Both the position numbers and the translations under genes were made by a program. From Pedobacter heparinus DSM 2366 (GTDB lineage Bacteria; Bacteroidota; Bacteroidia; Sphingobacteriales; Sphingobacteriaceae), in NCBI RefSeq assembly GCF_000023825.1, contig NC_013061.1:620001-684000 (forward strand): a stretch of DNA of 64,000 nt, in the 5' to 3' direction. Positions 31,816 through 51,270 of this stretch are shown piece after piece (position 1 is the first letter of the stretch; each line of letters begins with the position of its first letter). The notes under the pieces are model-generated. The model was not told the DNA's origin. It was given only the letters and a program-made list of their open reading frames with translations, and did no database searches.

Positions 31816-32519
31816 TAAACCTCAATACACTATTTTTTAACAGTTTTTGTAACTATTCAGGTTGTTGTTATAAGAAGTTCATAAGGAATTGGAAGCTAAA
31901 AAGCAATATCATCAAAATATTTCACAGAAAACATTTTTAAATATTATTGTAAACTTGAAACCTGTGAATTTATTCGTCTAAATAAAATTTTCATTTACTG
32001 GTACGATACAATCAAACCGACTCACTCCTTCAGAAACTACAGAAATATTTTTTTAAGTTGATGCCAAAAGTGAGTATTGGTTTATTCATAAATAGCATTT
32101 AATAAACGAGTAATTTCTAATATAGATATCTAGTCATTAGATATTAGTTAGTTGAAAATTTTCGAACCATTAAAAGACTTTCTGGCGTAGACGTTGACAT
32201 TAATTAACCTCCCAGATTTTGTTGAAAATCATATAGCATTATACTCTCTCCCGGCCCCGAATAAAAAAGCAACAGAAAGGAATGTTCTATCTTAAGACAT
32301 AAAGCCATTTTTTCCCGACACATATAGCTGAGATTTGATGACACGTCTCATTCTTTGTACATTTTGTCTCAAAACGTTGACAATGTTTCTTAACCATCTG
32401 ATATTTTAGTATGTTTAGCTAAACCAAATATCACTTAACATAAAGATATTCCTTTTTCTTAATCAGCACTCCATTTCTGTGAGTAGCTGTAGCAACGCTT
32501 TAACCCCCTCTTAAATATT
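31816..32519 (+). other. AT-rich 704-base region with the leader of the NusG-like gene
   Basis: I see no convincing gene on either strand. The region is strikingly AT-rich and lies between the polyprenyl synthase gene and the NusG-like gene. Its last ~55 bases contain the first copy of a repeated element (32466-32512). It probably holds the island promoter and a long 5' leader. No clear -33/-7 pair was found. Confidence 0.5.
32466..32512 (+). repeat. 47-base direct repeat, copy 1 (leader of the NusG-like gene)
   Basis: It begins GCACTCCATTTCTGTGAGTA and continues with GCTGTAGCAACGCTTT. The second copy at 33160-33206 matches at all but about seven aligned positions with two single-base gaps. 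It ends seven bases before the NusG-like start codon. GTAGC occurs as part of GAGTAGCTGTAGC, which recalls but does not match the ops element of RfaH systems. Confidence 0.85.
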
Positions 32520-33026
32520 ATGGAAAACGCTCAACAAGAAAAAAACTGGTATGTTGTGGTTACGTACCCGAATCTGGAAAGAAAAGCTCTTTTAAACTTA
32601 TTAAAAAACAATTTTATTGCCTTTTTACCCTTGCAAAAGGTGCAAAGAAAATGGAGTGACAGGAAAAAAACTATAGAAATTCCGTTGTTCCCTAATTATT
32701 TGTTTATCAACATAAATGAAAAAGACCGGTTCGAGGCGCTAGATATTTATGGAGTAAAACGCTATGTCACTTTCGGTGGTCGTCCGGCTTTTATTTCAGA
32801 AACAGACATATTAAATATTAAAAGAATTGTGGAGAGTGTTGATTTGTATATTGAGCACTCTTTAGTGAAAGGAGACGCGGTTAAAATAATTGGAGGGCCT
32901 TTTAAAGATATGATTGGGATTTTGTTTAAAAAAAGCGGTCAAGCCAGATTTGGAATCAGGGTAGAATCGATGAATCAAACACTTTCTATTGAAATATGTC
33001 ATACTTTAATTAGAAAGGTTTTTTAA
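32520..33026 (+). CDS. UpxY/NusG-family transcription antiterminator
   Basis: A 168-residue NusG paralogue. The NGN domain starts NWYVVVTYPNLERKALLNLL, continues through FLPLQKVQRKWSDRKKTIEIPLFPNYLFI, and is followed by a KOW region (KGDAVKIIGGPFKDMIGIL). Such specialised NusG paralogues (UpxY in Bacteroides capsule loci, TaA in polyketide clusters, LoaP) bind polymerase at an operon-leader element and stop premature termination in long biosynthetic operons. Here it heads the island, and the repeated element on both sides of it is the obvious candidate target site. Confidence 0.9.
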   Translation: MENAQQEKNWYVVVTYPNLERKALLNLLKNNFIAFLPLQKVQRKWSDRKKTIEIPLFPNYLFININEKDRFEALDIYGVKRYVTFGGRPAFISETDILNIKRIVESVDLYIEHSLVKGDAVKIIGGPFKDMIGILFKKSGQARFGIRVESMNQTLSIEICHTLIRKVF

Positions 33027-33159
33027 AATCTTGAGATAATAAATTTGTAAGCATTAATCAATAAAATAGTGTTGTTATACATTTTTTTAAAAATTGGTTT
33101 AATTAAAAAAAAATGTAAATAGCATATAAATAGTAAATTTATAATTAAACGCTTTAGTG

Positions 33160-33206
33160 GCACTCCATTCTGTGAGCAGCTTTAGCAACGCTTTTATCCA
33201 CTTCTT
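33160..33206 (+). repeat. 47-base direct repeat, copy 2 (leader of the first glycosyltransferase gene)
   Basis: It begins GCACTCCATTCTGTGAGCAG and continues CTTTAGCAACGCTTTTATCC. It aligns with the copy at 32466-32512, with TCTGTGAG in the first copy against CTGTGAG here. It lies 166 bases upstream of the glycosyltransferase start at 33372, just after the NusG-like gene. Confidence 0.85.
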
Positions 33207-33215
33207 TTTAAAATT

Positions 33216-33285
33216 GATAAACAGCTCTCATCCAAGAAAGCACGCATGTTGTTTGTGCGTTGCCGAATCTTGAGAAAAGAAATAT
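33216..33285 (+). pseudogene. Decayed 5' end of a second NusG-like gene
   Basis: Bases 33245-33283 (CATGTTGTTTGTGCGTTGCC, then GAATCTTGAGAAAAG) resemble the coding start of the NusG-like gene at 32552-32588 (TATGTTGTGGTTACGTACCC, then GAATCTGGAAAGAAAAG). One frame still reads HVVCALPNLEKRN against YVVVTYPNLERKA. It lies at the same distance after the repeated element as the real gene does after copy 1. It is therefore probably the remnant of a duplicated leader-plus-gene segment, not a working gene. Confidence 0.55.
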
Positions 33286-33371
33286 TCATTTTTGTTAAAT
33301 GTAGTTTAATTACATTTTAGTAGCAGAAGGAACGAAGAGATCTATTTTCAAAATATCTACATAAAGACAGT

Positions 33372-34703
33372 ATGACGCAGCCAACTTTAAATGAACAGCG
33401 ATGTCAAATCAGCATTGTATCTCCACTGCACCTAAATAGACTTGACTATAAAAGTAGCTACAATCACATGTTAGTCCTGATAGAAGGTCAATCGGAAAAC
33501 ATTGAGGTGAAAATTTGCAATAACCGTAAATTACGTATTAACCTGGATCACATTGGTATGCAATATGTGGTAAAATATTATGTCTTTCTATCTTTAGGCG
33601 ATCAGTTTAAAGCTGAAGATCTATTTAAAAAGATAACGCACTTTTTGAACCAGCCGGTTCATGAAATTATCTTATTATTACCTTATCTTTTAGCACCATC
33701 CGAAAATTTTAGGATAGATAGTAACGTACGTTCGTTTATAATCTCGAAAAAAGTATTCGACAGTAAGATTTTCTCGTTGATTAATCCTGCCAGATTTATT
33801 TATGAAATGGTAAATTTCTATCTCAATTCGCCGCAAAGCAACAACATTGAAATTGTGCAGGTTGGTAAGCCCGAGCCTCTTTCTGAAGTTAATGAAAATG
33901 GTATTTCAACCGAAATAAATGAGTCTTCTGTGCAGATTACTCATAAAGGACCGTTAAAGCTTTTAAAGCGGTGCCTGACCCATTTAGATAAGACAAAAAT
34001 GCTCCCTCAAAAAGTGGAAATATGTTTTGATGACAATTCTTACAAAAGGTTAGATCTTAAGCAGTTTAAAAACATTATTGATAACACAACGCTGTACAAA
34101 AACTCGCCTTTGGCAGTAGGCCCATTTCTGGCCAGACAGTACATGGTAGAACAATCAGCCAATGAATATATTTATCTCCTGGATTCTGATGACATATCTG
34201 TACCATCGCGTTTCAGTAAACTAATGCTGGAGCTTAAAGAAAGAAATTTAGACCTTTTAGGTTCTCACGAACTAAGAATTGATCAGATCGGTAAGAAACT
34301 GGTTATTGCCAGATTTCCACTTAACGTAAATTATGCCTTAGCTAAAAGATCCTTCCATCCCATGTTACATGGCACCTGTATCATGACAAAAGCCGGGTTC
34401 CTGAAAACGGGCGGATATTCAACAGAAGGAAAGTTTGGTTATGATACACAGTTCCTGTTAAGGGCAGGTTTTTTTCTTAAAATCGGCAATGTGGACGACT
34501 TTCTTTATCTAAGGTTCCAACGCCCCAACTCCCTCACTACTGCTAAGAAGACGATGTATGGAACCAAACGGAGAAAATTTATGGGCTGGCGGTGGCAGGT
34601 CGATTTTAACCTGGTTTGTTCGGGAAAATTAAATCTATCCGATTCATCTTTACGTGAAAGAAAGCATGACTTCAATTTTAAAATAGATGAAATTACCAAA
34701 TAA
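33372..34703 (+). CDS. Two-domain protein with a C-terminal GT2 glycosyltransferase
   Basis: 443 residues. The N-terminal ~185 residues are not recognised. From about residue 195 a GT-A glycosyltransferase domain is readable: VQITHKGPLKLLKRCLTHL, EICFDDNS, FLARQYMVEQSANEYIYLLDSDDISVPSRFSKLM (the DSDD gives the metal-binding DxD), then a FLKTGGYSTEGKFGYDTQFLLRAG acceptor loop. The start follows the second repeat element. The next gene overlaps it by 17 bases. It probably transfers a sugar to a peptide, lipid or glycan acceptor; the unexplained N-terminal domain could recognise that acceptor. Confidence 0.75.
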   Translation: MTQPTLNEQRCQISIVSPLHLNRLDYKSSYNHMLVLIEGQSENIEVKICNNRKLRINLDHIGMQYVVKYYVFLSLGDQFKAEDLFKKITHFLNQPVHEIILLLPYLLAPSENFRIDSNVRSFIISKKVFDSKIFSLINPARFIYEMVNFYLNSPQSNNIEIVQVGKPEPLSEVNENGISTEINESSVQITHKGPLKLLKRCLTHLDKTKMLPQKVEICFDDNSYKRLDLKQFKNIIDNTTLYKNSPLAVGPFLARQYMVEQSANEYIYLLDSDDISVPSRFSKLMLELKERNLDLLGSHELRIDQIGKKLVIARFPLNVNYALAKRSFHPMLHGTCIMTKAGFLKTGGYSTEGKFGYDTQFLLRAGFFLKIGNVDDFLYLRFQRPNSLTTAKKTMYGTKRRKFMGWRWQVDFNLVCSGKLNLSDSSLRERKHDFNFKIDEITK

Positions 34704-35265
34704 AAAGGATATCCGGTTAAGCATAGTAAACCAGAAAAAAATTTACGCTTTCCTGTCCAAAACAATTTATAATGAACTGATCGAATACGGCGTGGAGGAG
34801 GAGTATACCTTCCCGTTTTTATTGTATCTCCATTGGACTGTGATAAAAAAATATACTGACGTATCCAGAAACACCATTATTTATAATACGGAAAAAATCC
34901 TCCATAAACTCCAAAACACAATTGAGGCTGAAAAAGAAATATATAACCAAGAACTGACTGATTTTATTGAGACTCTTTTTGCAGATAATTCAGAAATTTT
35001 AATCTCTATATATCAAGATGTCTGTGAAACAGACTCGCCACCGATATGGCTGCAGGAATGGCAGAACCTTTGCGAGTTTTGCTATACTACAAAGTCCCAA
35101 AGACTAATATGTCTAAGCTTATTGAAAATAGTCAATGAATGTTTAAATATGCCGCATCATAAAACAAATATTTCGCTCAACATTCTACTCAAAATCGAAA
35201 AAAACAAGCAGGACATGATGTGCCCGGATCGCCAGGTCGGTTATATTTTAGGTAATTATGGATAA
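34687..35265 (+). CDS. Short SpaB_C-like protein (truncated lantibiotic-dehydratase C-domain family)
   Basis: 192 residues, helical, no signal peptide. By eye it aligns with the C-terminal two-thirds of the 292-residue protein at 50318. NSEILISIYQDVCET matches NQDILLEIVRDIWEP, WLQEWQNLCEF matches WMEVWEAACKN, and SLLKIVNECLNMPHHKTNISLNIL matches LLSNLVYEQIGFMHNKNSVRLSLK. The N-terminal part containing the GGDHIKL strand is missing, so it may be a shortened or decayed member. It overlaps the upstream glycosyltransferase and the aminotransferase downstream, so it is surely in one operon. The call rests on one remote alignment. Confidence 0.45.
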   Translation: MKLPNKKDIRLSIVNQKKIYAFLSKTIYNELIEYGVEEEYTFPFLLYLHWTVIKKYTDVSRNTIIYNTEKILHKLQNTIEAEKEIYNQELTDFIETLFADNSEILISIYQDVCETDSPPIWLQEWQNLCEFCYTTKSQRLICLSLLKIVNECLNMPHHKTNISLNILLKIEKNKQDMMCPDRQVGYILGNYG

Positions 35266-36385
35266 CATACAAATGGTTGATCTTAAAGGTCAGTACCTGA
35301 AGATTAAAGATGAGGTCGATATGGCTTTATTGCAGGCCGTTGAACGATCGATTTTTATTAACGGTGCAGAAGTAAAGATGTTTTCTGACAGTCTGAAGTC
35401 TTTTTGCAGAGCGGAGCATGTGGTGACATGTGCTAACGGCACCGACGCACTTCAAATAGCGATGATGGCTTTAGGGTTTAAGCCGGGAGATGAAATTATT
35501 GTGCCAACATTCAATTATGTTTCGTCTGTTGAAGTAATTGCATTACTGGGACTGGTACCCCGGTTTATTGATGTTCGGGAAGATACTTTTAATATCGATG
35601 ATCAGCAGCTAGAGGCAGTTATTTCTCCAAGAACGGTAGGCATTGTTGTCACCCACCTTTATGGACAATGCTGTAATATGACAGCAATCATGGAGATTGC
35701 CAGACATTACAAGCTGAAGGTAATCGAAGATACCGCTCAGGCGTTGGGTGCTGAATACATTCCTGCAGACGGGAAAAGGACGTTTGCCGGCACAATAGCA
35801 GATATCGGTACAACTTCTTTTTTTCCATCAAAAAATCTGGGATGTTTTGGAGATGGCGGAGCAATTTTTACAAACGATGAGGCGCTGGCTCAGCGCATCT
35901 ACATGATTGCCAATCACGGACAGGGGCAAAAGTATCTCCACGATTATGTCGGTGTTAATTCCAGGCTAGACACTATTCAGGCTGCGGTACTAGGCGTGAA
36001 AATAAAATACTTGAATGAATATACGGTTGTGCGACAAGAAGTGGCGGCAAAATATGATGAATTGGAAAACATAGATGGATTAACAATACCAGCAAGAGCC
36101 GGTTATTCTTCACATGTATTTAATCAATATACCTGCCGGATAGCTGACGGAAAAAGGGATAAGCTGAAAGCTTATTTAACGGGAAATGGTATTCCATCTA
36201 TGATTTATTACCCGATGCCTATGCATTTGCAAAACGCTTATATCACTTATAATAGTACAGGCAGAATCTTTCCTGTAGCTGAAAAATTATGTAAGGAAGT
36301 AATATCACTACCAATACATACAGAGATGACAATGGAAAAGCTAGAGTATATCGTTGAACACATCAGGACATTTTTCAAAAAATGA
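35258..36385 (+). CDS. DegT/DnrJ/EryC1/StrS-type sugar aminotransferase (WbpE-like)
   Basis: A 375-residue PLP-dependent aminotransferase acting on nucleotide sugars. The PLP-phosphate site (CANGTDALQIAMMALG), EDTAQALGAEY, and the PLP lysine in FFPSKNLGCFGDGGAIFTND are all present, and the C-terminal acidic-sugar region is intact. It closely resembles the WbpE/WlbC group, which put an amino group on C3 of a UDP-sugar. The acetyltransferase and the Gfo/Idh/MocA gene next to it complete the usual set. It overlaps the gene upstream by eight bases and the acetyltransferase by four. Confidence 0.93.
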   Translation: MDNIQMVDLKGQYLKIKDEVDMALLQAVERSIFINGAEVKMFSDSLKSFCRAEHVVTCANGTDALQIAMMALGFKPGDEIIVPTFNYVSSVEVIALLGLVPRFIDVREDTFNIDDQQLEAVISPRTVGIVVTHLYGQCCNMTAIMEIARHYKLKVIEDTAQALGAEYIPADGKRTFAGTIADIGTTSFFPSKNLGCFGDGGAIFTNDEALAQRIYMIANHGQGQKYLHDYVGVNSRLDTIQAAVLGVKIKYLNEYTVVRQEVAAKYDELENIDGLTIPARAGYSSHVFNQYTCRIADGKRDKLKAYLTGNGIPSMIYYPMPMHLQNAYITYNSTGRIFPVAEKLCKEVISLPIHTEMTMEKLEYIVEHIRTFFKK

Positions 36386-36963
36386 GTTTAAAAAAATATT
36401 ATTGTCATCCTACAGCAATTGTAGATGAGGGTGCCATTATTGGTGATGATGTGAAGATCTGGCATTTCTCTCATATTATGCGGGATGCAAAAATTGGTAG
36501 TCGTTGTAATATCGGGCAGAATGTAATGATTGCAAGCCAGGTAGTTTTAGGTCAGAATGTAAAGGTTCAAAATAATGTATCTATTTATGAAGGTGTGATA
36601 TGTGAAGATGATGTTTTTCTGGGGCCTTCTATGGTTTTTACCAATGTAATTAATCCTCGTAGCGCCGTTAACAGAAGAGGTAAGTATTTAAGAACACATG
36701 TTGGAAAAGGAGCAAGTATTGGAGCCAATGCAACAATTGTTTGCGGCCATGATATTGGTAGTTATGCGTTAATTGGAGCGGGGGCTGTGATTATCAAACC
36801 AGTGTTACCCTATGCCTTAGTGGTTGGAAACCCGGCTAAACAAATAGGTTGGGTAAGTGAATACGGTCATCGGTTGATTTTTGATGAAGGATTTAAAGCC
36901 ATTTGTCCGGAAACTCAACAGCAATATGAATTGAAAGGTAATCTTATCATCAAGATCAGCTAA
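36382..36963 (+). CDS. Hexapeptide-repeat N-acetyltransferase (WbpD-like)
   Basis: 193 residues with left-handed beta-helix repeats throughout (for example IVDEGAIIGDDVKIWHFSHI, IGSRCNIGQNVMIA, VGKGASIGANATIVCGHDIG, YALIGAGAVI). It closely resembles WbpD/WlbB enzymes, which acetylate the 3-amino group of a UDP-2-acetamido-3-amino uronate. The RHAT-like segment NPRSAVNRRGKYLRTHV is typical. It is translationally coupled to the aminotransferase (four-base overlap) and to the oxidoreductase (one-base overlap). Confidence 0.9.
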   Translation: MSLKKYYCHPTAIVDEGAIIGDDVKIWHFSHIMRDAKIGSRCNIGQNVMIASQVVLGQNVKVQNNVSIYEGVICEDDVFLGPSMVFTNVINPRSAVNRRGKYLRTHVGKGASIGANATIVCGHDIGSYALIGAGAVIIKPVLPYALVVGNPAKQIGWVSEYGHRLIFDEGFKAICPETQQQYELKGNLIIKIS

Positions 36964-37979
36964 TGGCACATATAAGCTCAAAAGTAAAATTTGCAGTTAT
37001 CGGTTTTGGCTATATAGGAATGCGGCATGCAAATACCATTTTAAGTAACGAAAGTTGCGAATTGGTCGCTTTGATTGATGTTAAACAGCAGGATCCTCTG
37101 GCGATTGAGAAATATGATGTGCCTTTTTTCTTTTCTTTAGATGCCTTTTTTGATTCCGAAATTCAGGCAGACGTCATAACTATTGCCTCGCCAAATGGAT
37201 TGCATGCAGAGCATGCAATGAAATGCTTAAATAGAGGAAAGCATGTCGTTGTGGAAAAGCCGATGGCATTAAACAAATCTGATGCGGAAAAAATGATCTC
37301 CACTGCGCTTAGTGTAAACCGCCAGATCTTTGTCGTGATGCAGAACCGGTATGCTCCTCCTGTTACCTGGATTAAGGGATTACTTGAAAAAGAGCAGCTG
37401 GGAAAAATTTACCTGGTCCAGGTAAATTGCTTTTGGAACAGAGACGAACGATACTATAAAGCTGGCGGATGGCATGGTAAACAGGATATGGACGGTGGCC
37501 CTCTTTTTACGCAATTTTCACATTTTATAGATATCATCTATTGGCTTTTTGGTGACATCATTAATATTCAGGGCAGATTTAAAGATTATAACCATCAAAC
37601 ACTTACCGAGTTTGAAGATAGTGGCTTTGTGAGCTTCGATTTTATAAATGGAGGCATGGGAACCTTAAATTATTCAACTGCTGTTTGGAACCAGAACCTG
37701 GAAAGTTCCATGACAATTATTGCAGCAAACGGATCTATAAAGATTGGTGGTCAATACATGGATAAGGTCGAAATCTGCAATGTAAAGGGTTATGAAATGC
37801 CAGAGAATGATCATGGGGCCTCCAAGGGTTCAGTGGCTAATCACCAGTATGTGATCAGGAATGTGGTGGATGTACTAAACGGACGGGCTTCAATTGCAAC
37901 CAATGCATTGGAAGGGCTGAAGGTTGTGGATATCATTGAACGGATTTACAATTGCAAAATTCACATTTATAATCAATAG
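36963..37979 (+). CDS. Gfo/Idh/MocA-family sugar dehydrogenase (WbpB-like)
   Basis: A 338-residue NAD-dependent oxidoreductase. The Rossmann start VKFAVIGFGYIGMRHANTIL, the EKPMALN catalytic lysine motif (VVVEKPM) and the GGPLFTQFSHFIDIIYWLFGD region (with the active-site His) are clear. WbpB/WlbA enzymes oxidise C3 of UDP-GlcNAcA before transamination, so with the two preceding genes this would make a UDP-2,3-diacetamido sugar. No WbpA-type 6-dehydrogenase is visible nearby, so the uronate would have to come from elsewhere. Its stop is followed in the same frame by the remnant at 37980. Confidence 0.9.
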   Translation: MAHISSKVKFAVIGFGYIGMRHANTILSNESCELVALIDVKQQDPLAIEKYDVPFFFSLDAFFDSEIQADVITIASPNGLHAEHAMKCLNRGKHVVVEKPMALNKSDAEKMISTALSVNRQIFVVMQNRYAPPVTWIKGLLEKEQLGKIYLVQVNCFWNRDERYYKAGGWHGKQDMDGGPLFTQFSHFIDIIYWLFGDIINIQGRFKDYNHQTLTEFEDSGFVSFDFINGGMGTLNYSTAVWNQNLESSMTIIAANGSIKIGGQYMDKVEICNVKGYEMPENDHGASKGSVANHQYVIRNVVDVLNGRASIATNALEGLKVVDIIERIYNCKIHIYNQ

Positions 37980-38174
37980 TGGGTTTATATATTGGAGCCA
38001 CACCTCCTTAATGAAATCCCGGAAAATACATTTTTCCATGTGACGCATTTAATTGAGAAAATCAAAATCAGAACAGGGAAACTTGGTGCATTTCTGATAA
38101 GCGAAAAATCCTGGACGGACATCGGAGGATGGGATTTTTATTCCAAATTTCTAAACAATAACATATTGATCTAA
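37980..38174 (+). pseudogene. C-terminal remnant of a sugar nucleotidyltransferase
   Basis: The frame directly continuing after the oxidoreductase stop reads WVYILEPHLLNEIPENTFFH, then a stretch ending KSWTDIGGWDFYSKF. This is the C-terminal pattern of NTP_transferase-type sugar nucleotidylyltransferases (G-Y-[IL]-EP...W-x-DIG-x-x-x-Y). There is no start, no catalytic N-terminal domain and no room for one. It is best read as a decayed gene end, left by a deletion that joined it to the oxidoreductase. The TTG at 37992 is a formal start only. Confidence 0.7.
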
Positions 38175-38243
38175 ATAGCTAGCTATATAGTTGCCCCGGA
38201 TGCCGAAAAGGGTTTAGAGTAGGCAAAACTTAGACAGAAAACA

Positions 38244-38519
38244 ATGAAAAAATTAAGATTAAACAAGAGTTTTATTTCGAATCTTACCAGGGATGAAGCA
38301 GGTAAGATTATGGGAGGGAATGACGCAACCTGGGAGGAATGCTCGGACAGGTGTTCTGATTATTGTACGACTCCTACTTACGGTGATGACGCCACTTGTT
38401 ATACTGCAGGGGCTGGATGTCCAGGAACCGGCAGCTATGGCTGTGCTACCGACAACGGATGTCAGTCAGACCTATGTCCGGATTCATTACAAATGACCGA
38501 ATGCGGCCCGATTTGCTAA
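38244..38519 (+). CDS. lanA: Class I lanthipeptide precursor, Cys-rich, double-Gly leader
   Basis: 91 residues. The 25-residue leader (KKLRLNKSFISNLTRDE..., ending MGG) has the LxLNK...I..L pattern of Bacteroidota GG-leader precursors. The core is 66 residues with 10 Cys (33, 37, 41, 52, 59, 67, 73, 78, 87, 91) and 14 Ser/Thr, and it ends on Cys. The spacing C3-x-C3-x at the start (ECSDRCSDYC) and repeated Thr/Ser-Gly stretches would support many lanthionine rings. Neighbours encode LanC, a split LanB and a C39 exporter, so the call is strong. An inverted repeat follows. A poor -7 box (TATAGTTG at 38186) lies upstream. Confidence 0.92.
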   Translation: MKKLRLNKSFISNLTRDEAGKIMGGNDATWEECSDRCSDYCTTPTYGDDATCYTAGAGCPGTGSYGCATDNGCQSDLCPDSLQMTECGPIC

Positions 38520-38529
38520 TCATGTGAGC

Positions 38530-38557
38530 GAAGTAAATACCTCAGGGTATTTACTTC
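38530..38557 (+). terminator. Perfect hairpin after the precursor gene
   Basis: GAAGTAAATACC at 38530-38541 pairs perfectly with GGTATTTACTTC at 38546-38557, loop TCAG, ten bases after the precursor stop. No T-run follows. As an attenuator or stabilising hairpin it could keep precursor mRNA in excess over the downstream enzyme genes. Confidence 0.75.
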
Positions 38558-38604
38558 CTAAAATTATTGTAAATTCATTTTATTAGCTTTTTCAGATCAA
38601 AACT

Positions 38605-38612
38605 TACATTTG
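38605..38612 (+). promoter_or_regulatory. Candidate -7 box upstream of the receptor-like gene
   Basis: TACATTTG matches TANNTTTG, 35 bases before the ATG at 38648. A TTAG at 38583-38586 lies at about the -33 position but is imperfect. It may supply a separate promoter for the modification and export genes, downstream of the precursor hairpin. Confidence 0.4.
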
Positions 38613-38647
38613 ATATTAATCATAGGTTTATTAAATACGAATACATC

Positions 38648-41119
38648 ATGAAACAGCTTATCTTCGTTCTATTATCTGTAGTCACAGCACTATCTGCGAA
38701 AGCTCAGGAGAATGATCATGGCGCTGAGCAATTAAAAAAGCAGCTATCCCTTTTCTTAACCCATCACCCATCCAGCAATCTTTATCTGCAACTGGATAAG
38801 AACATTTATTCACCCGAAGAAACCATCTGGTTCAAGGCGTACCTGCTCTCTGATACCGTTACTGCCAACAAAGTATTATATGTGCGCATTACCGACGAGG
38901 ATAAAGAAATAGTGCTCAACGCCCAGTTTCCCATGTACGATATCCGCTCGCATGGCGATATTCAGCTGCGCAGCAATCTGGAAGAGGGCAAATACACCCT
39001 TTATGCCTATACCGACCGAATGATCAGCTATGGAGATACGAATGTGTTTGTGCAGCGCATTCAGATTAAAAAGATGACCGGCAAGAAACTGGAAGCCGAG
39101 GCCCAGGTAAGCGACACCACCCAACTGGTAAGAGGCGGTAAGGTGCAAGTGGTGACTGTTATCCGTGAAAGCGGCAAACCGGCAAAAAACGTTAAAGGCG
39201 AATACGAGCTGCTTGCAGGAGAAAAAGCCATTAAATACGGCAGGTTGAGTACCAATTTGTTTGGCGAAGCCTTTATCAATTTCACTTACCCGGAACTAAA
39301 AGACAATCAGTCGCTGAAAATCAATATGCTCTTTTGCCGGGATAATGATTACGCCGAGCTGTCGCTGAATCTGCCCCATGAAGGCAATCCGCTGAAAGTA
39401 AGTATTTATCCCGAAGGCGGACAGCTACTGGCTGGTGTCAGCGGCAAAGTAGCCATCGAAGTACTGGATATCCATCAGAATCCGATACCTACCGAACTGC
39501 TGGTAAAAAACGCGGGTCGACTTATAGCCAAATTAAGAACCAATAAACAGGGAATCGCTACCCTGAGCCTGAAGCCTGAGCTTGGTGCCACTTATACTGT
39601 AGAAACAGCAGGCAAAAAGAAGCAAACAATTGCCTTTCCAGAAATTATAAAACCCGCAGGCTATAGCCTAAAGCTGCACAGGAATAAAGAAGAGATAGAA
39701 GTAACGGTCTACAATAAAAACAAAGCAGGCAATGCCTTACTGGTACTTCGCTCAGCAAAAGAAGTGCTGTGGAGTCAATCCTTAAAGATTCCACCGGACG
39801 ACTCGGTAAAAGTCACTATACCGGCAGCAGGTTTCCCCAAAAATATCCTGAGCCTGGCGGTACTTGACGGGGAGAATAAACCGCAGACAGAGCGTCTCTT
39901 TCTGAATAAAGCCCAGGAAGATTATAGGGTAAGCATCAGCACCGACCGGAAAGATTACGGCCTTCAAAAGAAAGTGACAGTTACTGTAAAGATATCCGAT
40001 ACCCGGGGTAATCCCGTTGTGGCTAATCTTGCAGTAGGAGCTACGGAAAAGAACCGGATCGACAGCGCGGGTTACCGGACCATTTTACAGTCCTGGTATT
40101 ACCATCCCTTTGAGCATGCCAGCAGGAACAGGTTGCTGTCGGCCAAATCAGCAAACGAGACGGACGCTTTACTGATGGCAAACACCTGGGGCAACAACCA
40201 GTGGAAAACCATCAGTGATTACCAGCCCACAAGCCCTCCATTGCGCCTGGATAATACAGATGCTGCAATTGGAATGGTGATACCGACCGGTAAGAAGGAG
40301 ATAGAGGAGATTGACATCAAATCCACCGATATTAATTTCTCTCTAGCGGAGTTAAACAAAAGAAATATTCTCCAAACCAGGCGATTTACCATTAAACTCG
40401 ATAAAAATAGGATGTTTATGATACCGGCTTCTGAACTGTTGTCCCGTAAAGGGAAAGAATGGATGTTGGATATATACAAAGTAATAAAACCTGCTCCCCA
40501 GGTCAATTTTGAGGTGCAATGGAAGGATCATGATATCCATTATGATAACATTGTAGTAAAAGGAAGATCACTATTCGTGCCGGAAATTGTAACCTTTTTT
40601 TCGAGGCTCAAAAATCCTGGGGTATCTGATTTCAAAATGAACGGGATAAACCAATTAGCAGAAGTTACTGTAGGGGGTAAAGATGAGATAATCAGAAAGA
40701 GGCTAAAAGATAAATGTGCAGATTGGGTGTGTGGATACAATAACATTAATTGTTCAAGACATCCCACAGGTACCAAACCAGTAAAGGGCCAAACTTATTT
40801 TAAAAGGTCTAAAGGCATAGTGAACCTAGTCACCAATATAGGTTGCGACAACTACAGAGATGTCAGTTATATCAAAAATATCACCATTCCGGAGGAGTTT
40901 TATTTGCCCGATTATGATAGTGCACCATTTGGAAAATTCGATCCCCGTTCCACTATTTACTGGAACCCTAATTTGGTTACCGATGCAAACGGAACGGCAA
41001 CATTTAGTTTTTTTACCTCAGACATTATGGGCGAATTTGAGATCATAGCCCAAGGACTGGAAGTAAATACTTTTACACCGTTAATGGGGAAAGGAAATTT
41101 TAAAGTTGCTGGTCAATGA
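38648..41119 (+). CDS. Exported MG2/TonB-plug-like receptor protein of lanthipeptide loci
   Basis: 823 residues with a signal peptide (FVLLSVVTALSAKA). An MG2-like beta region begins at about residue 40 (LYLQLDKNIYSPEETIWFKAYLL, the hallmark of macroglobulin-like domains), then several Ig-like modules. A plug-like QLAEVTVGG stretch follows, and a Cys-rich insertion with C690, C695 and C702. The end (FDPRSTIYWNPNLVTDANGT) is shared with a large Bacteroidota envelope family. It lies between precursor and LanC, so it may act in product passage, sensing or self-protection. The precise function is not known. Confidence 0.7.
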   Translation: MKQLIFVLLSVVTALSAKAQENDHGAEQLKKQLSLFLTHHPSSNLYLQLDKNIYSPEETIWFKAYLLSDTVTANKVLYVRITDEDKEIVLNAQFPMYDIRSHGDIQLRSNLEEGKYTLYAYTDRMISYGDTNVFVQRIQIKKMTGKKLEAEAQVSDTTQLVRGGKVQVVTVIRESGKPAKNVKGEYELLAGEKAIKYGRLSTNLFGEAFINFTYPELKDNQSLKINMLFCRDNDYAELSLNLPHEGNPLKVSIYPEGGQLLAGVSGKVAIEVLDIHQNPIPTELLVKNAGRLIAKLRTNKQGIATLSLKPELGATYTVETAGKKKQTIAFPEIIKPAGYSLKLHRNKEEIEVTVYNKNKAGNALLVLRSAKEVLWSQSLKIPPDDSVKVTIPAAGFPKNILSLAVLDGENKPQTERLFLNKAQEDYRVSISTDRKDYGLQKKVTVTVKISDTRGNPVVANLAVGATEKNRIDSAGYRTILQSWYYHPFEHASRNRLLSAKSANETDALLMANTWGNNQWKTISDYQPTSPPLRLDNTDAAIGMVIPTGKKEIEEIDIKSTDINFSLAELNKRNILQTRRFTIKLDKNRMFMIPASELLSRKGKEWMLDIYKVIKPAPQVNFEVQWKDHDIHYDNIVVKGRSLFVPEIVTFFSRLKNPGVSDFKMNGINQLAEVTVGGKDEIIRKRLKDKCADWVCGYNNINCSRHPTGTKPVKGQTYFKRSKGIVNLVTNIGCDNYRDVSYIKNITIPEEFYLPDYDSAPFGKFDPRSTIYWNPNLVTDANGTATFSFFTSDIMGEFEIIAQGLEVNTFTPLMGKGNFKVAGQ

Positions 41120-41152
41120 TTTTAAAAAAACATACTTAATAATAGATACGGA

Positions 41153-42382
41153 ATGAATAACAGGAAATGGGAACCCCTATTTAAAAAAGGAGAAAAGCAA
41201 TTGGGGGTAATTATCAATGTGCTTGAAAATACAGTATTTGAGAAAAGCTACTCCTTGTTAGGAATTGGAAGTACAGGAGCGGCCATTTTACTATATTATT
41301 ATTGGCTGTATTCGAAAGATGATAAATACCTTGAAAAAGCGAATGCCATTATCCTGAAAAATTTTGAATTATTACCCCACAGCACACATATTCATAGTTT
41401 ATGTAGTGGCACTGCAGGATTTAATTGGGCCGTAAATCACTTAATCAGTAATGGGCTTATTGAGGGAGATAGCAATGAATTATTTTCTGAAGACGATCCT
41501 TTTTTATATTCGGTAATGAAAAAGGATATCAACGAAGGCAAGTATGATTTTCTTCATAATGCCTTAGGTATTGGCCTGTACTTTTTAAATCGAAACACCA
41601 CTCAGTCACTGGCTTATTTAGAATCGTTGATTTCAAGTCTCGAAAAAAGTGCTGAAACAGACATTAAAGGAATAAAATGGCGATCATTAGTTAACCAGGA
41701 AGGACCAAAAGAAAAAAAAGAAGTTTATAATCTGAGCTTATCTCATGGTATGGCAAGTATCATTGCTTTTTTGAGTAAAGCATGCCAGGCTGATATATTC
41801 AGGGAAAAAACAAAAGATTTACTTTGCAGGGCAACCACTTTTATTTTAAGCCATAAGCGGGATGCTCCGGATCCAGAATATGGTTCATACTTCCCTTCTA
41901 CTATTTCTGTGAATGGAGATCCACCCATTAGCGCTAGTAGGCTGGCATGGTGTTATGGTGATCTTGGGCTTGGCTATGCTTTATGGCAGGCTTCAAAAAT
42001 TATACAAAATACTGAATGGGAACGTCTGGCTTTAGACGTATTAGTACATACTACTATCCGAAAGGATGTTGTTAAAGAACGTGTCAACGATGCAGGGATT
42101 TGCCATGGGGCTGCCGGCATTGCCCATATTTATAACCGTCTTTATCAACACACGGGCATCAGCCATTTTAAAGATGCTGCCATCTATTGGCTTGAAGATG
42201 TGCTAAACAAAGCTGTTTTTACTGATGGGCTGGCAGGCTATAAATCATGGCATCCACCTCAATATGGAGGATGGAAAACTAGTGTAGGATTACTGGAGGG
42301 TATTTCAGGAATCGGCTTAGTGCTTCTTGCAGCGGTGAGCGATATAGAACCTAAGTGGGACGAATGTTTATTATTGAGTTAA
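41153..42382 (+). CDS. lanC: LanC-like lanthionine cyclase
   Basis: A 409-residue LanC-family protein with the alpha-toroid pattern of SLLGIGSTGAAILLYYYW, LCSGTAGFNWAV, LSLSHGMASIIAFL, LLEGISGIGLVLL. The zinc ligands are in WCYGDLGLGYAL (C267) and ICHGAAG (C317, H318), as in NisC. It would add Cys thiols to dehydroalanine or dehydrobutyrine to close lanthionine rings. The LanB_N gene starts directly after its stop (TAA then ATG). Confidence 0.93.
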   Translation: MNNRKWEPLFKKGEKQLGVIINVLENTVFEKSYSLLGIGSTGAAILLYYYWLYSKDDKYLEKANAIILKNFELLPHSTHIHSLCSGTAGFNWAVNHLISNGLIEGDSNELFSEDDPFLYSVMKKDINEGKYDFLHNALGIGLYFLNRNTTQSLAYLESLISSLEKSAETDIKGIKWRSLVNQEGPKEKKEVYNLSLSHGMASIIAFLSKACQADIFREKTKDLLCRATTFILSHKRDAPDPEYGSYFPSTISVNGDPPISASRLAWCYGDLGLGYALWQASKIIQNTEWERLALDVLVHTTIRKDVVKERVNDAGICHGAAGIAHIYNRLYQHTGISHFKDAAIYWLEDVLNKAVFTDGLAGYKSWHPPQYGGWKTSVGLLEGISGIGLVLLAAVSDIEPKWDECLLLS

Positions 42383-44656
42383 ATGAAAAAAACGAATCCT
42401 TACCTGCCCTTTGAGCAGTTTGTTTATAGAAGTCCGCTTTTACCGTTCAATACATTTATTCAACACCTGACCGAAATTTCTGCTTCGGAAGAGCGCTTCA
42501 AAAACCTGTTATCCAATAAAATAATCTGGGAAGCTATTTATTTGGCCTCTCCGGTGCTTTTTGAAGAGCTGCTGAAATACTTACAGAAAGGTTTACCGGA
42601 TAAAAAAGAGGAGGAACGGATCAAATATTCTATGGTTCGTTACCTTGGCCGGATGTCTACAAGATGTACCCCATTTGGGCTGTTTGCAGGCTGTTCGGTG
42701 GGCCGCTTCAATGAACAAACAACTATTGCATTAAATAAAACAGAACAGTACCAGCGCCATACCCGCTTAGATATGACTTACCTGTGCGCCCTGGCACAGG
42801 AGCTGGCCGGTTCGCCGGAAGTAAAACCATACTTCCGCTATTTCAGCAATACCAGTATTTACAGATTTGGCGACAAAATCAGGTATGTTGAATATTTCTA
42901 CCGGAGTACGAGGCGAATTCATAGAATTTCGGCTGTAGATTATTCGGAATATCTTGACAAGATTTTGCGCGAAGCTTCCCAGGGAAGAAAAATAAACGAA
43001 CTGGCTGAATTAATAGTAGATGATGAGATCAGCATGGAAGACGCTTCAGCGTTTATTGACGAACTTATCAATTCTCAGTTGCTGGTGAACGAAATGGAAC
43101 CCTCGGTTACCGGAAAGGAATTTCTTTATCAGGCCATTCAGAAATTCGAAGAAATAGAAAAAACTATTCCGGGCAAAAAAGAATATATATCCGGTTCGCT
43201 TCAGCTATTAAAACAGGTTAGCAAGGTATTGGAAGATATAGATAAGAACGTTATTGGTAATACACTTCATCTTTACGGCGATATAACTTCAGAAATAAAA
43301 AGATTTAAAACCACGTTTGAACCTAAGTACCTGTTCCAGACGGATATGATTAAACCCGCCGATACATCGTTCCTGGGAAGAGATGTAATTGATGATCTGA
43401 AGGGAGCCATCGAATTTTTTAATAAAATTACAGCTAAGCCCGGGGAAACAAATTTGTCGAAATTTCGGGAGGCTTTCCGGGATCGGTACGAAGACAGGGA
43501 AATGCCTTTGCTACAGGTGCTGGATAATGAGGCCGGTATCGGGTACACTCAAGCTGGAAGTACAGGCGATATTAACCCACTGGTGGATGATTTAATGATT
43601 CCCCAGCCAGGTAGCAGTAATGGCAATAAAGTTATATGGAGTGGGTTACAATCTATATTGCTTAAAAAGTATATAGAGGCAAAAACAACAAATCAATATA
43701 CTATTGAGCTGTCAGACAAAGAGTTCGAACATTTAACGACCCAATGGAACGACTTACCGCTAACTATATCTGCTATGTTCCGGATAGTACAGGACGATAA
43801 GAATGGCAGGACAGTTTATATGAAAACAGCAGGAGGATCGAGCGCCGCCAATCTTTTGGGCCGCTTTTGCTATGCCGATAAACGGATTGAAGAACATGTA
43901 CTGGATATTACGCAGAAGGAAGAGGAGCTTAACCCCGATGTCATATTTGCTGAAATCGCGCATCTGCCCGAATCACGTACCGGGAATATTTTATTGCGCC
44001 CGGTTTTACGTCCGTACGAAATTCCGTATCTCGCCAAACCGGGAGTCGAAAAGGATTATCAAATTGCTTTGTCTGACTTAATGGTTTCTGTACGAAATGG
44101 CAGAATTCTGCTTCGTTCAAAGCGTTTGAATAAAGAAATAATACCACGACTGAGCAGCGCGCATAATTATAGCTTTAAAGCCATGCCGGTATATCATTTT
44201 TTATGCGACATGCAGGTACAAAATGGCCGCTCTGCTGTAGGATTTAACTGGGGAACTCTGGCGAATGAACACAATTGGTTACCCAGGGTAAAATATAATA
44301 ATATCATTTTTTCGGTAGCAAGGTGGACCATAAAACGCGAGGAAATTAAAGTCTTTATAGAAACAAAAGATGACCAGGTTTTAGTGGAATCAGTTACTGC
44401 ATGGCGACTGCCATTGCAAATACCAAAGCATGTGGTGTTGGACGATGGCGACAATGAACTCTTTGTTGATTTAACCAATGCGCTAAGTGTCAGGACTTTA
44501 TTTTCTGTTGTTAAAAAGCGAAATTCTTTCTTATTGGAAGAGTTTCTTTTTAACCCTGAGACAGCGGTAGTTAAAGGTGAAGAAGGGGTTTTTACCAATG
44601 AATTTATTGTATCTTTTTATAAGGAGAAACAAAATAACATCAATAATTATGGATAA
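42383..44656 (+). CDS. lanB: Lantibiotic dehydratase, N-terminal (glutamylation) half of a split LanB
   Basis: 757 residues of the LanB N-terminal type, with the family motif RMSTRCTPFGLFAG at residues 90-103 and RLDMTYLCALAQEL after it. It carries the tRNA-Glu-dependent glutamylation half of the enzyme but not the C-terminal elimination domain, which is a separate gene immediately downstream. The same two-gene arrangement is known from Bacteroidota lanthipeptides such as the pinensins. It starts right after the LanC stop and overlaps the SpaB_C gene by eight bases. Confidence 0.93.
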   Translation: MKKTNPYLPFEQFVYRSPLLPFNTFIQHLTEISASEERFKNLLSNKIIWEAIYLASPVLFEELLKYLQKGLPDKKEEERIKYSMVRYLGRMSTRCTPFGLFAGCSVGRFNEQTTIALNKTEQYQRHTRLDMTYLCALAQELAGSPEVKPYFRYFSNTSIYRFGDKIRYVEYFYRSTRRIHRISAVDYSEYLDKILREASQGRKINELAELIVDDEISMEDASAFIDELINSQLLVNEMEPSVTGKEFLYQAIQKFEEIEKTIPGKKEYISGSLQLLKQVSKVLEDIDKNVIGNTLHLYGDITSEIKRFKTTFEPKYLFQTDMIKPADTSFLGRDVIDDLKGAIEFFNKITAKPGETNLSKFREAFRDRYEDREMPLLQVLDNEAGIGYTQAGSTGDINPLVDDLMIPQPGSSNGNKVIWSGLQSILLKKYIEAKTTNQYTIELSDKEFEHLTTQWNDLPLTISAMFRIVQDDKNGRTVYMKTAGGSSAANLLGRFCYADKRIEEHVLDITQKEEELNPDVIFAEIAHLPESRTGNILLRPVLRPYEIPYLAKPGVEKDYQIALSDLMVSVRNGRILLRSKRLNKEIIPRLSSAHNYSFKAMPVYHFLCDMQVQNGRSAVGFNWGTLANEHNWLPRVKYNNIIFSVARWTIKREEIKVFIETKDDQVLVESVTAWRLPLQIPKHVVLDDGDNELFVDLTNALSVRTLFSVVKKRNSFLLEEFLFNPETAVVKGEEGVFTNEFIVSFYKEKQNNINNYG

Positions 44657-45602
44657 GGGGATAAAAAGGACATTTATACCAGGGGATAAATGGATTTATT
44701 TTAAATTGTATACCGGGTATAAAACAGCAGATAACATTTTAAGTAAAACATTACCGGCTATTATCTCTCAGCTAAATACCGAAAATGTGTTAGATAAATG
44801 GTTCTTTATCCGTTATTCTGATCCTAAATTTCATTTGCGGCTGCGGTTCTGCTTAAAGGATGCAAAAAACATTTCCTCTGTAATCTCCCTGTTTAACCGG
44901 GAAATGAGCCCTTACATTGATGAAGATCTGATATGGAAAGTGCAGATAGACACTTATCAGCGGGAACTGGAACGTTACGGTACAACAACCATGGAACATT
45001 CCGAATCTATGTTTCATTTTGATAGTGAAGCAATACTTAGCATACTTAGTATACTTAGTATCCCTGAATATAATGAATCCGATCAACAACGATGGCTGCT
45101 GGCATTAAAAATACTCGATGCCCTGCTCTTTGATTTTGAACTCGGCATGGACCAAAAAATTGCATTATTAACTGAGTTAAGCGAAGATTTTAAAAAAGAG
45201 ATGGGATTTACCATAAAAGGATATAAACTGCAATTGGATAAAAAATTCAGGACTCATCGTAAATTAATAGAAGAAATAATGGGCACACCCGAACAAGCAT
45301 CATGGGCAATCCCTTTAATGGAAATTATCAGACAAAGATCCTTAAAAGTAAAGCCAATTGCCGGGACATTGTTGCAAATGGAAATGAATCAGAAATTAGA
45401 AGTTTCGTTACATAGTTTATTGAGAAGTTATATTCATATGACGATCAATCGCTTGTTCAGGTCAAAGCAACGTGTATATGAGCTGGTTATTTATGATATG
45501 CTGGAAAGATATTATTCTTCTTTAAAAGCAAGAAGCAAAAATACTGCAGGCAAAATGCACCGGGCTTCCATTGAGGCATTACCACAGGTTGTGATAACTT
45601 AA
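44649..45602 (+). CDS. SpaB_C-type (elimination) half of the split LanB / thiopeptide-type biosynthesis protein
   Basis: 317 residues. The start WIYFKLYTGYKTADNILSKTLPAI and the signature WFFIRYSDPKFHLRLRF are the SpaB_C/thiopeptide-type domain. In a full LanB this domain removes glutamate from the activated Ser/Thr to leave dehydroamino acids. I chose the ATG at 44649; the longer frame starts on a GTG inside the LanB_N gene and adds residues without family support. It overlaps LanB_N by eight bases. A short direct repeat (ATACTTAGC / ATACTTAGT) at 45033-45061 lies inside it. Confidence 0.9.
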   Translation: MDKGIKRTFIPGDKWIYFKLYTGYKTADNILSKTLPAIISQLNTENVLDKWFFIRYSDPKFHLRLRFCLKDAKNISSVISLFNREMSPYIDEDLIWKVQIDTYQRELERYGTTTMEHSESMFHFDSEAILSILSILSIPEYNESDQQRWLLALKILDALLFDFELGMDQKIALLTELSEDFKKEMGFTIKGYKLQLDKKFRTHRKLIEEIMGTPEQASWAIPLMEIIRQRSLKVKPIAGTLLQMEMNQKLEVSLHSLLRSYIHMTINRLFRSKQRVYELVIYDMLERYYSSLKARSKNTAGKMHRASIEALPQVVIT

Positions 45603-45669
45603 GTCGCTGTAACGATCGTATAAAATAAATAAATTAAAGCAGCAATTTTACAATTCTAATAATACTAAA

Positions 45670-47847
45670 TTGAAGTTTCCTCATTACAAACAGCACGACA
45701 AAATGGACTGCGGCCCTACCTGTTTACGTATGGTTGCAAAATATTATGGACGAAACTATAGCCTTCGGCGTTTAAGAGAGCTTTGCCAGATTAACCGAGA
45801 AGGAGTTTCTTTGCTGGGAATCAGCGAAGCAGCAGAAAAGGTCGGTTTCCGCTCTTCCGGTGTTAAAATAGATCTGGAACAATTAAAAGAGGCCGAATTG
45901 CCATGTATCTTGCACTGGCGCCAGAATCATTTTGTAGTGCTTTACCGGATAGAAAAGGGGATTTATTATGTAGCTGATCCGGCTAAAGCATTGATTTCCT
46001 ATACCGAAAAAGAATTTACCAGAAACTGGGTAAGCAATAAAGAACTTTACGATGGGATAGCGCTGTTTATTTCTCCTACACCTAAATTTTATGAAGAAGA
46101 GGGAGAAAAAAACAGAGGGCTTAGCTGGTCATTCCTGTTGCGGTACCGCTATGCTTACAGCCGCCTGATTGTTCAGCTATTTTTTGGTTTAGGTATTGGC
46201 AGTATCTTGCAATTAATCACTCCCTTTTTAATGCAATCTGTAGTTGATATCGGTATCAACACCCGGAATATTAACTTTATTTACCTTATTCTGATTGCCC
46301 AGGTGATGCTTTTTTTAGGGAGTGCCAGTGTTAATTTTATTCGTTCCTGGATCATGTTACACATGACCACCCGCATCAATGTGTCCATATTAACAGACTT
46401 CCTCACCAAGCTGATGCGGCTGCCCATGAATTTTTTTGATACAAAAATGACAGGCGATATTATGCAGCGGATGGGCGACCATAAGCGGATAGAAGGTTTT
46501 TTAACCGGTACTACTTTAAATACTTTGTTCTCTTTCGTTAACCTCATTGTATTTGGAGTTGTATTGGCTTATTACAATACTGGTATCCTGCTTATCTTCC
46601 TGATCAGCACCTCTTTGTATGCTGCATGGATACTCCTTTTTATGAAACGCCGCCGTGAACTGGACTTTAAGCGTTTTGATAACTCGTCTAAGAATCAAAG
46701 CAATATGATCGAGTTAATTGGCGGTATACAGGAAATTAAACTTCATAATTGCGAACAGCAGAAACGCTGGCAGTGGGAAAGCATCCAGGCTACTATGTTT
46801 AAAGTCAGTATTAAGAGTCTGGCATTGAGTCAGTACCAGCAGGCCGGGTCGATGTTTATTAACCAGGCAAAAAACATACTTATTTCCTTTATAAGTGCCA
46901 AAGCCGTTATCGACGGTCACCTCTCACTTGGAGGCATGATGGCTGTGCAATATATGGTTGGGCAGTTAAATAGTCCGATAGAACAATTCTTAGGATTGAT
47001 CCAGAGCTTTCAGGATGCTAAGATCAGCCTTGAGCGATTAAATGAAGTTCATCAGATGGAAGATGAAGAATCTACTAATAAGCACTGGAACCAGGCGCTT
47101 CCAACAGATAGAAGTATCCGGATTGCCAATCTAACATTTCGTTACCCGGGGGCAGGTAATGAGCCTGTTCTGGAAAAGATTAATTTAGATATTCCCCAAG
47201 GTAAAACCACTGCCATTGTGGGGATGAGCGGGAGCGGTAAAACTACCATATTGAAGCTACTCATGCGTTTTTATGAACCGGAAAAAGGGGAGATAGAAAT
47301 AGGCACTGCCAAATTAAGTCAACTTAGCTTTAAAGTATGGCGGAACCATTGTGGAATGGTAATGCAGGATGGTTTTATTTTTTCGGATAGCATAGCGAAT
47401 AATATTGGCGTAAGCGATGAATATCCTGACCTCGATAAACTTCAGCATGCAATTAAAATAGCTAATATTGAGGAATTTGTGGATAGCCTGCCGCTTGGGC
47501 TCAATACCAAGATTGGTTCCGGTGGGAATGGCATCAGCCAGGGACAAAAACAACGGATACTCATAGCCCGGGCAGTATACAAGGATCCGGAATATATTTT
47601 CTTTGACGAAGCCACCAATTCGCTTGATGCTAATAATGAACGGGTGATTATGGATAATCTGCAGGACTTTTTTGCCGGAAAAACCGTAGTTGTGGTAGCG
47701 CACCGCTTAAGTACAGTTAAAAATGCCGATAACATTGTTGTACTGGATAAGGGCAGGATAATTGAGCAGGGAACCCATGCTGAATTATCACTGCTTAAGG
47801 GCGAGTACTTCGGACTTGTTAAAAATCAATTAGAACTGGCAATGTAG
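45670..47847 (+). CDS. lanT: Peptidase-containing ABC exporter (C39, LanT/bacteriocin type)
   Basis: 725 residues: C39 double-glycine peptidase (residues 1-130; Cys14 in DCGPTC, His87 in RQNHFVVLY, Asp103), six-helix membrane domain, and ATPase (Walker A GMSGSGKTT, signature ISQGQKQR, Walker B YIFFDEAT, switch His VVVAHRLST). The signature is ISQGQ, not LSGGQ. It would cut the precursor after GG and export the core. The start is a TTG at 45670; no ATG gives a better C39 start. HlyD follows after 63 bases. Confidence 0.95.
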   Translation: MKFPHYKQHDKMDCGPTCLRMVAKYYGRNYSLRRLRELCQINREGVSLLGISEAAEKVGFRSSGVKIDLEQLKEAELPCILHWRQNHFVVLYRIEKGIYYVADPAKALISYTEKEFTRNWVSNKELYDGIALFISPTPKFYEEEGEKNRGLSWSFLLRYRYAYSRLIVQLFFGLGIGSILQLITPFLMQSVVDIGINTRNINFIYLILIAQVMLFLGSASVNFIRSWIMLHMTTRINVSILTDFLTKLMRLPMNFFDTKMTGDIMQRMGDHKRIEGFLTGTTLNTLFSFVNLIVFGVVLAYYNTGILLIFLISTSLYAAWILLFMKRRRELDFKRFDNSSKNQSNMIELIGGIQEIKLHNCEQQKRWQWESIQATMFKVSIKSLALSQYQQAGSMFINQAKNILISFISAKAVIDGHLSLGGMMAVQYMVGQLNSPIEQFLGLIQSFQDAKISLERLNEVHQMEDEESTNKHWNQALPTDRSIRIANLTFRYPGAGNEPVLEKINLDIPQGKTTAIVGMSGSGKTTILKLLMRFYEPEKGEIEIGTAKLSQLSFKVWRNHCGMVMQDGFIFSDSIANNIGVSDEYPDLDKLQHAIKIANIEEFVDSLPLGLNTKIGSGGNGISQGQKQRILIARAVYKDPEYIFFDEATNSLDANNERVIMDNLQDFFAGKTVVVVAHRLSTVKNADNIVVLDKGRIIEQGTHAELSLLKGEYFGLVKNQLELAM

Positions 47848-47910
47848 ACGCGGATACATTTAAGGCCGGAGCATATTGATTCACAATGATTAAAATTCAA
47901 TAAATAAATT

Positions 47911-49200: not shown

Positions 49201-50315
49201 TGAGGGACTATAAAATATCATTTTGTACCGTCTGTATGAACAGGCTGCACCATCTGAAACAAACACTACCTGTTAATTTGCTTGATAACCAAGCTTACCT
49301 CAACCTGGAGTTTATACTACTGGATTATAATTCTTCTGACGGACTTGAGCATTGGGTTAAAAAAAATATGCAGGAACACCTTGAAAGCGGAAGGCTTGTT
49401 TATTACAAAACCTGTACACCTATGCACTTTAACAGAAGTCATTCCCGTAACCTGGCTTATAAATTGGCTGATGGCGATTTAATTTGTAACATAGATGCTG
49501 ATAACTACACGGGAGATGGCTTTGCCGCTTATATAAATGAGGAATTTAAAAAGAACGAGAATATATTTCTGACTACGCTTAACTCCATTGAAGCCAGAGG
49601 GAAAGATGTATTGGGAAGGATGTGTGTCAAAAAAAGTGACTTCTATAAGATTGGAGGATATGACGAACGAATGGTTTATTACGGTTTTGAAGATTATGAT
49701 TTTGCAAACCGATTGGAGTTCAATAATGTCAGAAGGACCTTCATAACAGGTGATCAGGATTATTTCAGGGCTATTACCCATTCCAATACGGAAAGGCTCT
49801 CAAATGAGTATGCATATGGAAATCTGACAACCTTATTGGTTAATTATCTTAGTCCCTGCAGTACAGATTTTTTATTCTTGTTTAGTAACAAAGAATATAG
49901 GAGAAATATTATTATTGATCCTAAGGCTTACCCATTTTCTGAACCCTTATCAGAATTTCAGAAATCTCAAATAAGGTATCCGCAATCAACTTTAAACGCT
50001 TTGTGGCTGGAAGGAGAATGGAGTGGGGATGAAAGCGAAATAAATTTGAAAAGTAAAGAAGGGATTCAAGAACGATTATCCTTTAACGAAGAAAGAAAAT
50101 GTTTTATTTCTGATTTATGTACCGAAGCATCAGACTTTTATAAGATTCTTAATCCGATGTTTATACAGCAAGCCATTATGTTTTACAGTCAATTCACTAA
50201 CAGAGTAATCATGCATCAAAATAAAATAGAAAGGCGGATTATTGTGAATGGGCTTAGATTTGGTAATGACGTAGTCTATAAAAATTTCGATGATCAAACA
50301 CCTATCACTACCTAA
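49200..50315 (+). CDS. GT2 (GT27-like) glycosyltransferase
   Basis: 371 residues. GT-A motifs: ISFCTVCMNRLHHLKQTLPVN, FILLDYNSSDGLEHWV, CNIDADNYTGDGF (DxD at DAD) and the acceptor/metal loop GGYDERMVYYGFEDYDFANRLE, as in GT27-type and galactosyltransferase C-domain proteins. A ~110-residue C-terminal extension (after residue ~260) is not recognised. No signal peptide: cytoplasmic. It is translationally coupled to HlyD (one-base overlap) and followed after two bases by a SpaB_C-like gene, so it belongs to the lanthipeptide operon. Acceptor unknown; a peptide is possible. Confidence 0.85.
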   Translation: MRDYKISFCTVCMNRLHHLKQTLPVNLLDNQAYLNLEFILLDYNSSDGLEHWVKKNMQEHLESGRLVYYKTCTPMHFNRSHSRNLAYKLADGDLICNIDADNYTGDGFAAYINEEFKKNENIFLTTLNSIEARGKDVLGRMCVKKSDFYKIGGYDERMVYYGFEDYDFANRLEFNNVRRTFITGDQDYFRAITHSNTERLSNEYAYGNLTTLLVNYLSPCSTDFLFLFSNKEYRRNIIIDPKAYPFSEPLSEFQKSQIRYPQSTLNALWLEGEWSGDESEINLKSKEGIQERLSFNEERKCFISDLCTEASDFYKILNPMFIQQAIMFYSQFTNRVIMHQNKIERRIIVNGLRFGNDVVYKNFDDQTPITT

Positions 50316-50317
50316 TT

Positions 50318-51196: not shown

Positions 51197-51270
51197 AAAG
51201 TATTTTACAATAAAGTAATGAAAGAGTTTAATGAAATTTTATAATTCAGGTTAAAATAAAATCATCAAAT

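Follow-up and report, generated by a model that had tools for sequence, protein, structure and literature searches.

Genes for UpxY-family NusG paralogues are often accompanied across a bacterial class by a short, strand-specific DNA element that is present in operon leaders. The window, a stretch of 64,000 nt from Pedobacter heparinus DSM 2366, contains a repeated sequence whose first copy is likely to be an ops-like recruitment site of this kind, whose non-template strand would be read by the UpxY protein encoded just 3' of it while the polymerase pauses, in the way that RfaH reads ops and that is reported for Bacteroides UpxY. The original prediction had proposed the repeat as the recruitment site of the neighbouring antiterminator. 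This remains the best reading, and it draws its support from the class-wide, strand-specific tie of such elements to UpxY, not from the presence of two copies. The features concerned are listed below.

32466 to 32512, plus strand: repeat copy 1, in the leader of the UpxY-like gene, read directly
32478 to 32502, plus strand: core of copy 1, a candidate recruitment site, consisting of TGTGA (32478-32482), an 8-nt spacer, AGC-AAC-GCT (32491-32499) and TTA (32500-32502)
32520 to 33026, plus strand: gene for a UpxY-family NusG paralogue of 168 aa (NF033644, 123 bits against a curated cut-off of 100; PF02357)
33160 to 33206, plus strand: repeat copy 2, 82% identical to copy 1, probably a duplication product of doubtful activity
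33171 to 33195, plus strand: core of copy 2, TGTGAGCAGCTTT-AGC-AAC-GCT-TTT
33207 to 33371, plus strand: decayed relic of the 5' part of a UpxY-like gene, aligning to about 32512-32690, with frameshifts and stops
33372 to 52389, plus strand: presumed target operon, from Pfam scans, with the operon structure predicted from gene spacing

The window protein is thus a member of NF033644, and the RfaH, LoaP and NusG models all scored under their cut-offs on it. A second UpxY gene is located at about 4.68 Mb in the same genome; its product is 33% identical to the window UpxY, and it has its own canonical site with a GAA loop. According to the Pfam matches, the presumed target operon carries glycosyltransferases, sugar-amino genes, a LanC-like gene (41153), a split LanB (42383/44577), a C39-type ABC exporter (45670) and HlyD (47911), a content consistent with a roughly 19-kb cluster of the class I lanthipeptide type with sugar genes within it. 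A 91-aa ORF at 38244-38519 in the cluster is a candidate precursor peptide. The promoter and terminator scan gave results at chance level.

The coordinates of the two copies were confirmed, whereas their description as near-identical was generous: 41 of 50 aligned columns are identical over the whole element (82%), with indels, and 30 of 35 in the gapless core (86%). Allowing up to three mismatches to the 23-mer core, no third site was found in the window, where shuffling gave an expectation of 0, or in the 5.17-Mb genome, so that the repeat as such is not a product of chance. The pattern TGTGA-N7..10-AGC-NNN-GCT-NT likewise matched nothing in this genome beyond the two copies. The 165 nt between copy 2 and the glycosyltransferase gene were found to align with the start of the UpxY gene better than any of 500 shuffles did, reading HVVCALPNLEKRN against WYVVVTYPNLERK of the intact gene. 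Since this relic lies directly 3' of copy 2, the duplicated unit comprised the leader and the gene start rather than the element alone, and the pair represents a tandem duplication, not two independent sites. Copy 2 thus probably arose when leader and upxY were duplicated in tandem, the second gene having decayed, and the two copies, once offered as support for function, do not count as independent evidence of it. In addition, copy 2 departs from conserved positions, lacking both the conserved T and the R+1 base.

The presence of the relic raises the question of whether the whole repeat is a mere by-product of the duplication of leader and upxY start, without function. The AAC loop, unique to the window, and the weak PWM support for the window copies (both below) agree with such an origin, which accounts well for copy 2 but not for copy 1. 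We consider it unlikely, because the element is better preserved between the copies than the relic (82% against 59% identity, Fisher p=0.004) and because its layout and place match those of UpxY-linked sites in relatives. The excess in identity, which comes from one pair and could also reflect gene conversion or chance, hints at constraint on the element. Copy 1 as a recruitment site is accordingly best judged against the elements of other genomes.

The element family was discovered when the leaders of the genus's UpxY genes were read in a common orientation. In them the sequence ATGTGACTGARRGGGCGAAGCTGTG is nearly invariant and is usually situated shortly 3' of upxY, ahead of the next gene, or elsewhere 12-272 nt 5' of upxY. 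The canonical element of the class is TGTGACTGAnnnGGC-GAA-GCT-GTG, with GGCGAAGCTGTG as its 12-mer and TGTGACTGAnnnGGCGAAGCTGTG as its fuller form. Pattern searches returned 62 matches against 2 for the reversed pattern in 99 genomes of the genus, and 40 against 4 for the control in 295 genomes of the class. A UpxY gene was found within 1.5 kb of 37 of the 59 fetched sites, on the same strand in every case (37/37). When the neighbourhoods of 50 class UpxY genes were scanned with a relaxed motif, it occurred on the coding strand at 26 and on the opposite strand at one; near 20 core nusG genes it was absent. Furthermore, UpxY was detected over the cut-off in 48 of 149 class genomes, and a strict motif, TGKGASTNNNNNRGCGRAGCYNTR, was present in 28 of these 48 and in 0 of the 101 UpxY-negative genomes (Fisher p=1.1e-17); the reversed motif, used as a control, was present in none of the 149. 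The 28 genomes span 24 genera, related lineages among which are not independent events. At about half of the UpxY loci examined, a recognisable element nearby was missing. Other UpxY-linked leaders, which the original prediction had singled out as the place where the idea could fail, thus do carry the element family, and its co-occurrence with UpxY, its leader position and the strand rule together make a UpxY recruitment site the best reading. Two loci with UpxY and the element belong to records titled as a Bacteroides fragilis MAG (L137) and an uncultured Shewanella (L115), names that look doubtful.

Within the family, TGTGA is the most constant part, and the loop is GAA in 64 and GGA in 6 of 78 sites. 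The ends resemble a pause signal, with Y at -1 in 72 of 73 sites and R at +1 in 71 of 73, and the outer stem pair is always pairable, being A:T in 11 of 11 cases and otherwise G:C or G:T (p about 0.03, a weak covariation). The constancy of TGTGA, a half-site of CRP-like regulators, together with the location of sites at operon starts, might be expected of a double-stranded operator bound by an ordinary regulator. We regard such an operator as extremely unlikely: an inverted second half-site is missing, the orientation always tracks the operon, the element's presence depends on UpxY in the genome, and many sites occupy the gap between upxY and the gene that follows it on the same strand. The CRP type in particular was rejected on account of the asymmetry and the strand rule.

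The strand rule was also seen where upxY diverges from the neighbouring operon, as at two loci (L066, G182) in which the element lies on the operon's strand, and it is recruitment of UpxY to the transcribed operon that these arrangements favour. Strict sites were divided between those adjoining a UpxY gene (15/33) and those not adjoining one (18/33, some distances on draft contigs not being measurable), and in two genomes a site lies more than 1 Mb from upxY on the same contig. G192 and G224 have four and three sites, respectively, each with one distant UpxY gene, which suggests small RfaH-like regulons. Distant sites are followed first by surface-polysaccharide genes, encoding UDP-sugar dehydrogenases, Wza-type export proteins, NeuB, GDP-mannose dehydratase, UDP-galactopyranose mutase and ABC-2 exporters. 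Often the gene that comes first after such a site encodes a protein of 175-204 aa that weakly resembles the PaaX-like (winged-helix) type (L264, L263, L271). Elsewhere, a UpxY gene and a GAA-loop element are followed by phage-tail-sheath-like and baseplate-like genes (L291, 6593-11962), in the same order in L292 and L293, which may represent a contractile-injection-type operon.

A quick tree placed the window UpxY in a clade of 13 (SH-aLRT 91). The sites of this clade have the form TGTGA-N8/9-AGC-(GAA, GGA or AGA)-GCT, with GGC-GAA-GCC in L065 instead. L207 and L223 have TGTGAGTAG and the 8-nt spacing in common with copy 1. In the clade members G091 and G094, the site is located about 200 nt before an NRPS gene and 3-6 kb away from upxY. 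Genus relatives in the clade (L287-L290) have UpxY beside NRPS operons encoding 2100-3950-aa proteins, with the element in the leader. The relatives' operons are not all lanthipeptide clusters, as had been supposed, and the other window genes have no homologues there. No element was found beside the genes of three close relatives of the window UpxY (L273, L278, L279).

Both window copies fit the arrangement of a TGTGA box, 7-9 nt, RGC-NNN-GCY, the operon strand and proximity to upxY, and the layout of copy 1 is that of 71 UpxY-linked elements outside the window. Their loop is AAC in both copies and not of the GNA type; after GCY, the TTA of copy 1 fits the pause-like Y-1/R+1 end, and the TTT of copy 2 does not. 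With a PWM built from the 71 outside sites, copy 1 was the best match in the 64 kb, yet in 23 of 60 shuffles of the window a site scored as high (in 17 of 100 when the loop was omitted), and copy 2 scored poorly and failed. A similar pattern arose in the two intergenic regions at shuffle frequencies of 1.5e-4 and 5e-5, the pattern having been framed after seeing the copies. An AAC loop was not found adjoining any other UpxY gene examined, so that the architecture, rather than the exact AAC version, is the general feature, and on this point the original prediction was not supported. Local alignment of the 47-mer to the relatives' loci yielded background only, because nothing but the architecture is common to them. 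The sole other AGCAACGCTTT site in the relatives' genomes searched, TGTGACGAGTAGAACAGCAACGCTTT at G091:C32:78181-78206, may be due to chance. Taken together, the clade layout, the spacing, the PWM rank and the unique AAC loop indicate that copy 1 is a probable diverged site, its core being probably a diverged form of the class-wide element, and that copy 2 is a probable relic.

If copy 1 is active with its AAC variant, RNA polymerase would pause near its GCT-TTA end, where the exposed non-template strand would present a tiny AGC-AAC-GCT loop and the TGTGA box would lie in the duplex just upstream of the transcription bubble. In the ops register, the TGTGACTGA box falls at about -24 to -16, that is, in the duplex behind the bubble; the three-pair DNA stem is weak by calculation. 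UpxY would bind at copy 1 and may remain on the polymerase as an antiterminator through the roughly 19-kb lanthipeptide-type operon, and the canonical TGTGACTGAnnnGGCGAAGCTGTG would serve UpxY proteins class-wide in the same manner, in cis and in trans. Strand specificity and a leader position would equally be expected of a structure in the leader RNA to which the UpxY complex binds, in the style proposed for LoaP and its hairpin, and the ever-pairable R:Y outer stem pair could be taken in its favour. Such a structure appears very unlikely, since the leader RNA folds no better than shuffles, only three pairs are available, conservation lies in the sequence, including the loop, rather than in structure, and the ends resemble a pause signal. 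The RNA folding proposed in the original prediction as a check accordingly gave no signal, with energies like those of shuffles. For the DNA element, we tentatively put forward a class-wide code, for which the odds seem somewhat less than even: UpxY would read the three-base loop (GAA, GGA, AGA, AAC) together with the TGTGA box behind the bubble, one genome would insulate its two antiterminators by different loops, the second UpxY using GAA and the window UpxY AAC, and many of these proteins would act in trans on one to four operons, as RfaH does.

How specialised NusG paralogues except RfaH locate their operons is an open question according to reviews (PMC7593976, PMC7819879). The question becomes directly testable in many cultured environmental species with a sequence that can be searched for and that predicts, for each genome, the targets of UpxY in cis and in trans. 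Searching with it also yields a list of long operons, of polysaccharide, NRPS and lanthipeptide type, as candidates for dependence on UpxY, and differences in the loop from one UpxY to another within a genome could account for their avoiding each other's operons. JUMPstart is a leader box that ends in ops and precedes polysaccharide operons; its upstream part is unlike the one described here. Rfam covariance models gave no match over the gathering score on the window and 10 canonical loci. Open-access literature searched for the 12-mer, Pedobacter NusG, JUMPstart in Bacteroidetes and ops-like sites contained nothing relevant, the sites of Saba et al. 2024 being outside this comparison.

Among known systems, LoaP and TaA resemble the window clade in being NusG paralogues devoted to natural-product operons. 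LoaP requires a hairpin in the RNA (PMC12691694), whereas the leader here has no stable RNA hairpin and the LoaP model scored under its cut-off. In Bacteroides, too, UpxY proteins act on leaders of long operons, with several of them having separate targets in one genome, and leader sites are reported for them (Chatzidaki-Livanis 2009 and Saba et al. 2024, cited by PMC7819879 and PMC12691694). They are also reported to contact upstream duplex DNA (Saba et al. 2024, cited by PMC12691694). Compared with these, as the citing papers describe them, the present elements reach NRPS and lanthipeptide-type operons, and many sites are far from upxY. In E. coli, the non-template strand of ops, GGCGGTAGCGTG, forms a loop closed by C3:G8 that is read by RfaH at a pause (Zuber et al. 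2018, PMC5995543). The canonical element likewise has twelve bases with the ends GGCG...GTG, a small loop closed by a C:G pair and pause-like flanks (Y-1, R+1), and it stands in leaders of long surface-polysaccharide operons, where one factor would act in cis or in trans. The element family differs in its loops (GAA, GGA, AGA or AAC against GGTA of ops), in an extra conserved TGTGACTGA box upstream, and in its factor, which is of the UpxY family and under the RfaH cut-off. The earlier statement that the repeat is not ops is literally true of the window core, which contains no GGCGGTAGCGTG-like sequence and is less ops-like than the canonical form, but is misleading, as the canonical GGCGAAGCTGTG shares the layout of ops. 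That a transcribed DNA element can recruit a NusG paralogue is already known as a kind of mechanism, and what appears to be new is the sequence itself, its exclusive co-occurrence with UpxY across the class, the distant sites, the NRPS and lanthipeptide-type operons as targets, and the window's variant loop.
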